Origin: Phycisphaerae bacterium
Lineage (GTDB): Bacteria > Planctomycetota > Phycisphaerae > Sedimentisphaerales > Anaerobacaceae
Length of the DNA: 64,000 nt
Reading direction: 5' to 3'
NCBI GenBank assembly: GCA_012744475.1
Contig: JAAYBV010000080.1
Coordinates: 1-64,000 of the forward strand
Below the pieces are notes generated by a model that was given only the letters and a program-made list of their open reading frames with translations, searched no databases and was not told where the DNA came from. Positions 11,730-28,698 of the stretch are shown here, one piece after another. How positions within the stretch are numbered: position 1 is the stretch's first letter; each line of letters opens with the position of its first letter. The translations under genes were made by a program, and so were the position numbers.

Positions 11730-12176
11730 ATGCAAAGCAACCAACACAGACCGATTCCGATGCCGTCGGCGCGCCAGGAAGCCCCGGACGACAGCGAGGC
11801 GCGTGTCGCGCGGCTGCTGGACCGCCCGGCGGTGACGCGCCTGTTCGACAGTTGGCTGATCGACCTGGAGATCCTGTCGGGCGCGCTGAGCCGGCGCGAG
11901 ATCAGCGAACAAGCCTACATGGGCGCGCTGCCGAGAATCCACGAGCAGTTGCGCTACTACGGCAGCGGGGGCGAACTGCGCCGGGACCTGGAGCGCCTGG
12001 AGGCGATCCTGACCGGCCTCGACGGGGCCGGGACCGCGCCGCCGGAGGCCGGGGCAGACCCGAAATCGTCCCCGGTGGCGGAGGCGGAGAAACAAGATAG
12101 TTCCGCTCCGGAATCGGGTTCTGGCACGGAAGTTGCAACTTCGAATTCGAAACGAATGCGAAAGATCAGGAAGTAA
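11730..12176 (+). CDS. Small protein of unknown function
   Basis: 148 aa, not recognised. The start MQSNQHRPIPMPS is preceded by GGGAGAA. The middle (about residues 25-105) is predicted mostly helical (ARLLDRPAVTRLFDSWLIDL; LRRDLERLEAILTG). The tail after residue 110 is low-complexity (P, E, A, S), ending NSKRMRKIRK in repeat-like DNA. It lies 500 bp after the HTH gene and 98 bp before the next small frame, so the three may form one cassette. Confidence 0.55.
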   Translation: MQSNQHRPIPMPSARQEAPDDSEARVARLLDRPAVTRLFDSWLIDLEILSGALSRREISEQAYMGALPRIHEQLRYYGSGGELRRDLERLEAILTGLDGAGTAPPEAGADPKSSPVAEAEKQDSSAPESGSGTEVATSNSKRMRKIRK

Positions 12177-12191
12177 ATCGAAAGCGAAATC

Positions 12192-12236
12192 CCGAGTTCG
12201 AAAGGGAATGGAAACTACTCTTTTTTTCGAACTCGG
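12192..12236. repeat. Inverted repeat with 12-bp arms
   Basis: CCGAGTTCGAAA (12192-12203) and TTTCGAACTCGG (12225-12236) are perfect reverse complements around a 21-nt loop. It is followed at once by a TCCGCCTGCGGCGGA palindrome (12240-12254). A run of seven T lies before the right arm, so it does not look like an intrinsic terminator. Confidence 0.75.
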
Positions 12237-12239
12237 TGG

Positions 12240-12254
12240 TCCGCCTGCGGCGGA
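12240..12254. repeat. TCCGCC/GGCGGA small palindrome
   Basis: TCCGCC-TGC-GGCGGA directly after the 12-bp inverted repeat and 20 nt upstream of the start codon at 12275. Confidence 0.6.
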
Positions 12255-12274
12255 CTCGAACTTCGGAGAAAAAG

Positions 12275-12667
12275 ATGAATTTTTCGATTTCGCTTCGCAC
12301 TCGCTCGCTGGCGTTCTACGAGAGCCTGCTGGCGGCGCTTCCGGCCCGGACGGTCAGCGACCGCACGGGCTACCGCCGGATCGCCGCCTGGCTGATCGAG
12401 CAGGTCGAGGCCGGACAGCGCGGCGACGACATCTTCGCCATCGTCCTGAGCTACGCGACGGAAGCCGCCGCCGCGGCGCTGCGCTGCGGCCCGCCGGCCC
12501 TGCTGGATCCCGACGCGGCCGCATCACCGCCAGCGCCCAAGGCCCCTTCCCCCGGGAAAAACCAATTTCCTGAGGGTTTTTGGCGATTCAGCCGTTACCA
12601 TTCGTTTGTGTCCCGCCTTGTAACAATGGGGGACCAAGGTCAGTTTGTTAGTACGAGGCCGACGCGG
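12275..12667 (+). other. Small open frame running into the ankyrin-serpin gene
   Basis: A start codon at 12275 with a CGGAGAA site opens MNFSISLRTRSLAFYESLLA... and a plausible compact helical protein through about residue 90. The frame has no stop before the ankyrin-serpin gene, which has its own lipoprotein signal at 12668. A single +1/-1 shift near 12510 would instead end it at 12573 as ...ITASAQGPFPREKPIS, like the sulfatase tail. I infer a small gene that has lost its stop, or a frameshifted one. The product is not recognised. Confidence 0.45.
12521..12557 (+). repeat. 37-nt repeat shared with the sulfatase 3′ end
   Basis: About 32 of 37 bases match 10655-10691. At 10655 the sequence encodes the sulfatase C-terminus; here the same peptide (ITA-AQGPFPRE) is encoded in a frame different from the open one. 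Confidence 0.6.
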
Positions 12668-16005: not shown

Positions 16006-16078
16006 CGTCCCTTAGGTCCCTGGGGTCCTTCTTTGGCCAAAAGGACCTAAGGGACCAAAGGGACCTAAAGGACTCTGT
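16006..16078. repeat. 9-nt-unit inverted repeat, copy 4
   Basis: Left units CGTCCCTTA, GGTCCCTGG, GGTCCTTCT; centre TTGGCCAAA; right units GGACCTAAG, GGACCAAAG, GGACCTAAA, GGACTCTGT. It separates cmk from plsC, and the cmk stop codon (16065-16067) lies inside it, so the repeat provides the end of that gene. Confidence 0.87.
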
Positions 16079-16754
16079 TTGCATTTTGCCTTCGATTGAT
16101 GTGGCGCAGCAGACACTCGACGACTTCCTCGATGGTCATGCGGGTCGTGTCGACGCAGATGGCATCGGGCGCCGGCTTGAGCGGGCCGACCGCCCTGCTT
16201 TCGTCGCTGCGGTCCCGCGACTCGATCGCCCGGTGCAGCTCGTCCAGGTCGGCCTCCACGCCCTGCGATTCCAGCTCGAGCTGGCGCCGCCGGGCCCGCT
16301 CGCGCGAATCGGCGACGAGATAGAACTTGACGCCGGCGTCGGGAAACACCACCGTGCCCTGATCGCGTCCTTCGGTGACCACGCGTCCCCATCGCCGGCC
16401 GAACTGCCTCTGCATCTGGACCAGCCTGGCGCGCATCGGAGGCGACGAGGCGACGCAGCGGACGTTGGCGGTCAGCTCGGGGCTGCGGATCCGGTCCGTG
16501 ACGAGCTGCCCGTCGACGAAGACACGCATGGCGTCGTCGCCCGGCTCGAATCCGAACGTATGGCGGCCGATCACGCCGATCAACTGCGATTCATCCTTCA
16601 GATCGACCCCGTCCTGCATCGCGGCGAAGGTGACGGCGCGGTACATCGCGCCGGTGTCGAGGAATGTCGCGCCGATCCGCGAGGCCAGTCGTCGGGCCAC
16701 GGTGCTCTTGCCGCTGGCGGCCGGACCATCGATTGTCACGACAAACAAAGCCAT
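16065..16754 (-). CDS. cmk: Cytidylate kinase
   Basis: 229 aa. It phosphorylates CMP and dCMP with ATP. The P-loop is DGPAASGKST, followed by FLDTGAMYRAVTFAA and the GRDQGTVVFPDA motif, where most Cmk proteins read EGRDxGTVVFP. The start is the ATG at 16754, with GTG at 16757 as an alternative. The last residues (NRRQNANRVL) and the stop fall in or beside repeat copy 4. The 5′ 44-52 bp are duplicated upstream at 16970-17013. Confidence 0.93.
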   Translation of the reverse strand: MALFVVTIDGPAASGKSTVARRLASRIGATFLDTGAMYRAVTFAAMQDGVDLKDESQLIGVIGRHTFGFEPGDDAMRVFVDGQLVTDRIRSPELTANVRCVASSPPMRARLVQMQRQFGRRWGRVVTEGRDQGTVVFPDAGVKFYLVADSRERARRRQLELESQGVEADLDELHRAIESRDRSDESRAVGPLKPAPDAICVDTTRMTIEEVVECLLRHINRRQNANRVL

Positions 16755-16803
16755 CACTCCTGTCCTGCCCTCTCAAGCCCTTTCCCGACTCGCGACGCGG
16801 GCC

Positions 16804-16966
16804 GCAAGCACGAAATCCGAATATCGATCCGCCTATGGCGGACGAAACAAGCACGAAAGCCCAAACCCTCAAATTCGAAAGGGGCCTTCGGCCGGGAGTT
16901 TGGAACATTCGCATTTGCGTCATTCGAATTTGTTTCGGATTTCGAGATTCGTGCTTCGAATTTCAG
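16804..16966. repeat. AAGCACGAAATCCGAAA element, copy 1
   Basis: Left arm GCAAGCACGAAATCCGAATA and right arm ending ATTTCGAGATTCGTGCTTCG are roughly inverted, AT-richer than the surroundings. A TCCGCC-TAT-GGCGGA palindrome (16828-16842) and a GGGGCCTTCGGCC hairpin (about 16879-16891) are nested in it. The same family is at 28501-28680 with nested palindromes at other places. Confidence 0.75.
16828..16842. repeat. TCCGCC/GGCGGA small palindrome nested in a larger element
   Basis: TCCGCC-TAT-GGCGGA interrupts the left arm of the AAGCACGAAATCC element. The copy at 28501 lacks it, which suggests secondary insertion. Confidence 0.6.
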
Positions 16967-16969
16967 CCC

Positions 16970-17013
16970 GTGCTCTTGCCGCTGGCGGCCGGACCATCGA
17001 TTGTCACGACAAA
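16970..17013 (-). pseudogene. Duplicated fragment of the cmk 5′ end
   Basis: 44 bp identical to 16702-16745, extending with mismatches over the start codon (complement of CAT at 17020-17022). It encodes VTIDGPAASGKST and then stops in repeat DNA. It is a broken start of cytidylate kinase, left by an insertion with long target duplication or by a tandem duplication. Confidence 0.8.
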
Positions 17014-17046
17014 ACGAGCCATCGCCGCTCCGGTACTCGTCGGTTC

Positions 17047-17108
17047 TCAGTTCCCAGTTGACAGTTCTCAGTTCCCAGTCCACCGCCAACTGACAACTGA
17101 CAACTGAC
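17047..17108. repeat. CAACTGACA-type inverted repeat
   Basis: CAGTTCCCAGTTGACAGTTC on the left faces CAACTGACAACTGACAACTG on the right. It lies directly 3′ of the SpoIIE phosphatase gene (stop at 17114), so it may end its transcript, or be a member of the same dispersed family type as 18533-18582. Confidence 0.65.
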
Positions 17109-17113
17109 CGCTG

Positions 17114-18475
17114 TCAACTTCCCCCCGCAGACTCGCACTCGCGGCACCCCTCGGTCCGCCGCGGCGGGCCCACCTTGACGGCGATCAGACTGGTGTCGTC
17201 AATCTGTCGAGCCAGGCCGGCGAATCGGCGGCGGTAGGCCAGGATGTTGCGCACCACGTGGTCGGCCGGGCAATCGGTGAACCGCTTGGCTGCATCGATC
17301 AACCGTTCGCGGCCCCACACTGTGCCGTTGAAGTCCATGGCGTCGACCAGACCATCCGTGTAGAACAGCAGACAATCGCCGTCCTCGAGCTGCACCGTAT
17401 CGATTTCGAACTTCGCCTGCGGGTCCACACCCAGGACCAGTCCGCCCTTGGCAAGGTCTTCGACCTGCCCGTTTCGGATCAATGCCGTCGGCTCATGTCC
17501 GCAACTGCAATACGTCATGGTCCTTTCGCGGGCATCGACGGTCGCATAGAACAGCGTAATGAATTCCCCTTCGCGGCACTCGATGCACGCCATCTTGTTG
17601 AAATTCTCAATCGCGTTCTTGGTGCGGATGGCCGCCTTCAGACCGCTGTTCAGGTCGCCGGCCACCGGGCCCATGTCCTTGAGGATCTCGCGGAACCCCT
17701 CGGTGTAGGCCTGGACCGCGCCGCGGAACCAGCTCATCATGATCGCCGCAGGGACGCCCTTTCCGATGACGTCGGCGATGGTGATGACGACCCGGCCGTC
17801 GCTGATGGGCAGGAAGTCGTAGAAATCGCCGCCGACGTCAAAACAGGGAATATAGGTTGCCGCGATGTCCAGCCCTGTGATCCTGGGGGCTTTCTCAGGG
17901 ACCATGCGGCGCTGGATCAGTCCGGCCAGACGCATCTGCTCGGCGATCCGCTGTCCGGCAATCGCCTCGCTGTAGAGCTTGGCGTTGGTGATGGCCACGG
18001 CGCACTGCGAGGCCACCGCCCGCGCGACGGTGGTATCGGCCTCCTTGAACCCTCGCGGCCGGGGGCTGTACAGGCGCAGGACGCCGATCGGATGGTTCCG
18101 GAACTGCATGGCAACCGTCAACTGGCTGACCAACCCCTCTTTGAGGGTCGTTTCCTTGTACTGGATGCGGCTGTCATCCCGCATGTCGTCGATGACGATC
18201 GCTTCGCCGGCAAAGGCGGCGCGAATGACCTCGTCATCCTTGGTCACGGGGCCTTTGTTGCGATACTCCTCGCTGAGTCCGTAGGTGCTGCGCATCCTCA
18301 GATCGTTGGTCTCTTCGTCCAGCAGCCGGATCGAACAGGCCTTGGCGCCGACAATCTTTACCGCCGCCTCGGCCAGTTGGTCGAGCACTTCCTGAAGCGA
18401 GAACTCCCCCGCCACCAGCGTGCTGAGCTGATAGATCTGCTCGTTTCGTGCGATGTCTCTCTTGGTTCTACCCAT
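17114..18475 (-). CDS. GAF domain - SpoIIE/RsbU-type protein phosphatase
   Basis: 453 aa. A GAF domain (about residues 10-180; VGAKACSIRLLDEETNDLRM) is joined by a helical linker (KLYSEAIAGQRIAEQMRLAGLIQRRM) to a PP2C-like SpoIIE domain (GGDFYDFLPISDGRVVITIADVIGKGVPAAIMM; DTSLIAVKV end) with the metal-binding Asp residues. Such proteins dephosphorylate anti-sigma-factor antagonists, switching a stress or envelope sigma factor in reply to a signal bound by GAF. No partner switch gene is adjacent. The start MGRTKRDIAR is chosen because a clear promoter ends shortly upstream. Confidence 0.88.
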   Translation of the reverse strand: MGRTKRDIARNEQIYQLSTLVAGEFSLQEVLDQLAEAAVKIVGAKACSIRLLDEETNDLRMRSTYGLSEEYRNKGPVTKDDEVIRAAFAGEAIVIDDMRDDSRIQYKETTLKEGLVSQLTVAMQFRNHPIGVLRLYSPRPRGFKEADTTVARAVASQCAVAITNAKLYSEAIAGQRIAEQMRLAGLIQRRMVPEKAPRITGLDIAATYIPCFDVGGDFYDFLPISDGRVVITIADVIGKGVPAAIMMSWFRGAVQAYTEGFREILKDMGPVAGDLNSGLKAAIRTKNAIENFNKMACIECREGEFITLFYATVDARERTMTYCSCGHEPTALIRNGQVEDLAKGGLVLGVDPQAKFEIDTVQLEDGDCLLFYTDGLVDAMDFNGTVWGRERLIDAAKRFTDCPADHVVRNILAYRRRFAGLARQIDDTSLIAVKVGPPRRTEGCRECESAGGS

Positions 18476-18506
18476 ACTTCGACAATTCCACCCTTTCAGC
18501 GGGGGC

Positions 18507-18535
18507 ATTATAAACGACATCGGGCCTGGGTTGAA
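18507..18535 (-). promoter_or_regulatory. Sigma-70-like promoter for the GAF-SpoIIE gene
   Basis: On the minus strand TTCAAC (18530-18535), a 17-nt spacer and a perfect TATAAT (18507-18512). The gene start at 18475 lies about 25 nt past the expected transcription start. Confidence 0.68.
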
Positions 18536-18582
18536 GTCTGAAGTGTCAAACACCCGACTTCACACTTGACACTTCAAACTTC
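18533..18582. repeat. 17-bp-arm inverted repeat overlapping a -35 box
   Basis: GAAGTCTGAAGTGTCAA (18533-18549) and TTGACACTTCAAACTTC (18566-18582) pair at 16 of 17 positions. It touches the -35 box of the GAF-SpoIIE promoter and lies 16 bp downstream of the stop codon of the membrane protein gene. It could be an operator, a terminator stem or a mobile palindrome. Confidence 0.7.
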
Positions 18583-28477: not shown

Positions 28478-28585
28478 ATCATCTCTCCACCGGACGGCGG
28501 GAAATACGAAGCACGAAATCCGAAATCCGAAACAAATTCGAATGATCCAAATTCGAATTCTTCAAATGGTCCTCGCTGTGCGACT

Positions 28586-28599
28586 CCGATGGACATCGG
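28586..28599. repeat. Small palindrome nested in a larger element
   Basis: CCGATGGACATCGG, the same core as the palindrome in mfd (3498-3515). Confidence 0.65.
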
Positions 28600-28647
28600 G
28601 GCTTCGGTCATTGGTACTTCGGGCTTTGGGTTTGTTTCGTGTTTCGA

Positions 28648-28663
28648 TCCCGGCGCGCCGGGA
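28648..28663. repeat. Small palindrome nested in a larger element
   Basis: TCCCGGCGCGCCGGGA, identical to the copy in the sulfatase gene at 9212-9227. Confidence 0.7.
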
Positions 28664-28698
28664 CGGATTTCGGATTTGCGGCCGCCTCGGCCGCGTGC

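Follow-up and report, generated by a model that had tools for sequence, protein, structure and literature searches.

The region studied here lies in a window of 64,000 nucleotides (the whole stretch of DNA that was analysed) from a Phycisphaerae bacterium, in the gap between a phosphatase gene and the essential gene cmk. The order on the minus strand is phosphatase gene, 7-bp arrays, a cmk stub, an element built of CGAA heptamers, a leader, the intact cmk and an acyltransferase gene. The phosphatase gene (17114..18553, minus strand), a neighbour kept in relatives, encodes a GAF and SpoIIE-type (PP2C-like) protein (Pfam SpoIIE, 4.9e-42; GAF). It is followed by degenerate 7-bp arrays of GTTCCCA and CAACTGA units (17043..17119), detected with a tandem repeat finder, and by the stub (16970..17023, minus strand), which is a second, truncated cmk start. 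The stub breaks off after GGC AAG AGC AC, where the CGAA-heptamer inverted-repeat element starts (16803..16968, minus strand; ends approximate). This element is supported by related genomic copies and by its RNA fold, and its left end adjoins the stub. Its right arm holds a small palindrome, TCCGCCTATGGCGGA (16828..16842), which was read from the sequence and compared with other copies. A genome-unique 47-bp leader (16756..16802, minus strand) connects the element with the real cmk start (16702..16755, minus strand), which is the other copy of the direct repeat. No second source for the leader was found in the genome, where only short weak matches were obtained. The intact cmk gene (cytidylate kinase; 16065..16754, minus strand; Pfam Cytidylate_kin, 1.6e-68) has its ATG at 16754. 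The stub ORF, MARFVVTIDGPAASGKSTG (16963..17022, minus strand), was read from the sequence; it comprises 19 codons, its stop comes from the joint with the element, and GGAG is located five bases ahead of its ATG. No Rfam family was found within the window, and a search of a plasmid collection with the region gave no match. A second palindromic array, made of GGTCCCT/AGGGACC units, is located between cmk and the acyltransferase gene (16018-16075); together with the upstream CGAA element, repeats are therefore present on both sides of cmk.

The position and the identity of the 44-bp duplication reported in the first-pass annotation were both confirmed. The 44-mer GTGCTCTTGCCGCTGGCGGCCGGACCATCGATTGTCACGACAAA has exact matches at 16702-16745 and 16970-17013, in the same orientation and with an offset of 268 bp, and the repeat AAGCACGAAATCC (16806-16818) is indeed located between the two cmk starts. 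The blastn match extends to 54 bp (16702-16755 / 16970-17023; 94.4% identity, E = 1.6e-18 within the window) and far exceeds chance. ATG GCT is common to both copies, and the three mismatches all fall in codon 3, where cmk itself has TTG and the upstream copy CGT. Beyond ATG GCT the sequences upstream of the two copies do not match and are unrelated. In 1.6 Mb of the same genome, exact direct repeats of 40 bp or more with a spacing of 30-2000 bp numbered only 10, the cmk pair included. Among these, the spacing was below 900 bp only in the cmk pair and in three more repeats at two loci, whose spacings are multiples of three, as expected for repeats that would lie within coding sequence.

In most of the family genomes that were compared, cmk directly follows the phosphatase gene. 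In the closest relatives, the congeners G004 and G005 (80-81% protein identity), 10 bp separate the phosphatase stop from cmk; the distance is 15 bp for G003 and 106 bp for G029. In the present genome it amounts to 359 bp, and this gap holds the CAACTGA heptamer array, the cmk stub and the inverted-repeat element of ~160 bp. The empty site that had been proposed as a check was found in five relatives (G001, G003, G004, G005 and G029), which hold one copy of the target and no insert. Because array, stub and element are all missing at the cmk site of these genomes, the insert is specific to this lineage after its split from G004 and G005, unless several losses took place. The comparison was extended to 75 cmk loci, some of which represent the same genome from two collections, and in no other locus was a copy of the gene's own start present within 700 bp upstream (best score 12, versus 44 here). 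The perfect identity of the 44 bp had been taken as the sign of a recent event. This is weak evidence of recency, since G004 differs at only 3 of the 44 positions, and codon 3 of the stub is fully changed. Because codon 3 of the aligned cmk start is Leu in G004, G005 and G001, the TTG of the gene keeps the ancestral residue and the CGT of the stub is the changed codon. Third-position identity to G004/G005 is equal for cmk and the phosphatase gene (0.66-0.68). Replacement of either gene by DNA of another species was rejected, the divergence being unchanged.

Dozens of copies of the element were detected in the genome by nucleotide search, and many copies are present in G004, G005, G029 and G036. 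Its architecture consists of two complementary arms of degenerate heptamers ending in CGAA, the commonest being ATCCGAA, GCACGAA, ATTCGAA and ACTCGAA. Self-match in the arms reached 0.50 for a lag of 7 and 0.43 for a lag of 14, whereas the surrounding DNA gave 0.27 and 0.28. In RNA folding the cmk copy forms a single long hairpin (-64.6 kcal/mol, z -3.3); its nearest genomic relative is located at C27:42733-42859 (91% over 127 bp). An exact core motif was searched in 392 genomes of the phylum and found in 7, whereas the reversed control pattern gave no match. Eighteen of the exact core matches are in G147:C1, the single contig of a distant planctomycete genome, and the family therefore extends beyond this order. 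Another copy in the window, at 28501-28690, occupies a position common to G004 and, minus its left half, to G005; because of this shared position, the 28501-28680 copy is, on sequence comparison, an old one and no recent insertion. The small palindrome TCCCGGCGCGCCGGGA in the right arm of this copy is present in the window genome only, as compared with G004 and G005, which suggests that mini-palindromes may insert into CGAA elements. Further empty and filled pairs were sought in G004/G005 for elements on C29, C46 and C27, and no clean pair was obtained, their flanks either having no matching site or being on different contigs. A literature search on planctomycete palindromic repeats yielded nothing.

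One Y1 transposase gene of RAYT appearance is present in the genome (C22:1728-1952), and no copy of the element was found within 1.5 kb of it. Element clusters were present alongside only one of the 27 Y1 loci inspected in six genomes. At this locus (G004:C139, L342:730-1325) a 285-bp tandem unit, repeated 2.1 times, holds a CGAA element and the palindrome GTAGGGTGTGCACCGCACACC beside a RAYT-like Y1 gene; the palindrome looks like the transposase's own REP. Mobilization of the element through the genome's Y1 transposase was thus considered and discarded, no association having been found. REPINs, or REP doublets with RAYT (PMC3116915), resemble the CGAA elements in being intergenic inverted repeats with tens of copies per genome and a Y1 gene present, but the CGAA element is longer, consists of degenerate heptamers and does not flank the genome's own Y1 gene. 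Membership of this class is not claimed here, because the genome's own Y1 gene lacks an adjacent element and only one in 27 Y1 loci has clusters.

The first-pass annotation had interpreted the locus as an insertion with an unusually long target duplication that rebuilt the gene start. In favour of a transposition of the element into the cmk start with a target-site duplication of ~50 bp, the element begins at the end of the stub, and the site is empty in relatives. Such a repeat should abut both ends of the element, however; the stub adjoins the left end, but the right end is separated from the second copy by 47 bp of unique DNA, and the outer flanks are unrelated. Flanking repeats were also analysed in 43 copies from this genome and 19 from relatives, the background being set with 241 mismatched left/right flank pairs (95th percentile 11, maximum 18). 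The left versus right flank score was 45 for the cmk copy, 15 for the next one (part of another dispersed repeat) and 13 or less for the remainder; the best score in the relatives was 11. Direct repeats of tens of base pairs, which had been expected at the ends of other copies, thus rise above the background in one of 43 genome copies (cmk alone) and in none of 19 in relatives, and a more sensitive flank search returned only the cmk copy and the next-scoring one. The copy at 28501-28680, named beforehand as a possible counterexample, also lacks a flanking duplication. The evidence says that CGAA elements do not usually leave long target duplications, and transposition with target duplication is most improbable as the origin of the cmk stub. 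A wrong though attractive clue to the movement of these repeats is hereby removed.

After a simple tandem duplication, both starts should be preceded by the same DNA, but their upstream sequences do not match. A more elaborate version, in which element, leader and cmk start were duplicated in tandem, the upstream element was then lost or replaced by the CAACTGA array, and the stub drifted, is unlikely. The segment at G004:C139 (285 bp, 2.1 copies, 96% match) carries a CGAA element, and tandem duplication of element-bearing segments therefore occurs in the genus, but at cmk a second event would be needed to remove all the shared upstream sequence, no remnant of which is detectable, and all three changes of the stub are in one codon. 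The two copies, with their differences at codon 3 and in the leader, also resemble two alleles, and the metagenome-derived draft genome is in 118 contigs, as would fit a chimera of two strains made during assembly. We regard such a chimera as decidedly unlikely, since the joint between stub and element has no counterpart sequence able to confuse the assembler. In addition, assemblers commonly finish with word sizes longer than the 44 bp of this repeat. Finally, the stub might be a functional leader peptide or decoy that regulates cmk together with the hairpin, as the GGAG ahead of its ATG and the stop just before the strong hairpin would allow. This is extremely improbable: the stub is not conserved, none of the other cmk loci among the 75 compared has one, and a search for promoter-like or terminator-like sites found none. 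The stub is better regarded as a leftover, at most readable as a 19-residue peptide.

Because the predictions of target duplication and of simple tandem duplication both fail, the reading that remains is one junction, specific to this lineage, at which illegitimate recombination or repair brought together two copies of the region between the phosphatase gene and cmk. Recombination, offered earlier together with strand slippage as the alternative to insertion, stays the best reading. One copy would have given the sequence as far as codon 18 or so of cmk, and with it the stub, while the intact gene, its 47-bp leader and the palindromic element would derive from the other. The two cmk starts would already have differed upstream and at codon 3, and they would have been joined at the palindrome's left foot. 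The likely trigger is a break in this long imperfect palindrome or a polymerase that stalled there, because the joint sits where the left foot of the element begins. The partners may have been two strains of the same species or sister chromatids, since third-position identity to G004/G005 is the same for cmk and the phosphatase gene; this makes a donor from another species unneeded, and such a comparison, in which the divergence is equal on either side of the joint, would not reveal a donor from within the species. The duplication, the empty site, the lack of similar flanks at other copies, the unrelated outer sequences and the place of the joint were observed directly; we infer the breakage or stalling, which partners took part and in which order things happened. 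A one-off local junction at the palindrome foot that kept cmk intact agrees with the unrelated outer flanks, the difference between the copies at the whole of codon 3, the 10-bp gap without insert in G004 and G005, the lack of flanking repeats at other element copies and the folding of the element as a long hairpin. On the other side, neither an allele with the element and no stub nor the reverse was found, the partners are hypothetical, breakage at the CGAA family is an assumption, the genome is a draft, and the joint could also be explained by insertion of the element into an already duplicated gene start. Taken together, we give the one-off junction about an even chance of being correct.

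Palindromes are known points of breakage and template switching (PMC7999016), and the position of the joint, beside the foot of a long palindrome, recalls the rearrangements that they induce, although the one at cmk is imperfect. In bacteria, joints that have homology at just one end are documented (PMC3240628). In this homology-facilitated illegitimate recombination, homology on one side is combined with a random joint on the other, and the process would yield a partial gene copy beside an intact gene, as at cmk; here, however, no donor allele was found, and sister-chromatid exchange or template switching would look alike. That CGAA palindromes are recurrent breakage points at which repair copies neighbouring gene starts, with the family spreading and remodelling intergenic regions without a transposase, is very unlikely, but if true the cmk stub would preserve one such event.

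The heptamer/palindrome family is a better lead than the cmk duplication itself. Starting points for a study of this planctomycete repeat family are the gain at cmk, which is specific to this lineage and has its empty site in five relatives, and the old shared site at 28501. In form, the CGAA elements resemble the heptamer repeats (STRR) and small dispersed repeats of cyanobacteria, which also have degenerate 7-bp units, hairpin arms, nested small palindromes and an intergenic location; unit sequence and phylum differ. The same features are found in the TAACTGA heptamers of Beggiatoaceae (PMC4679880), again with another unit sequence and in another phylum. Elsewhere in the window, 17 CGAA/TTCG motifs whose unit sequence is different are densely clustered at 12140-12297, overlapping the 5' end of a large ankyrin-repeat/serpin-like ORF. 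CAACTGA-like arrays adjoin CGAA elements at two separate sites, 17043-17119 and G000:C46:166956-167145, and therefore the two heptamer families may cluster together.
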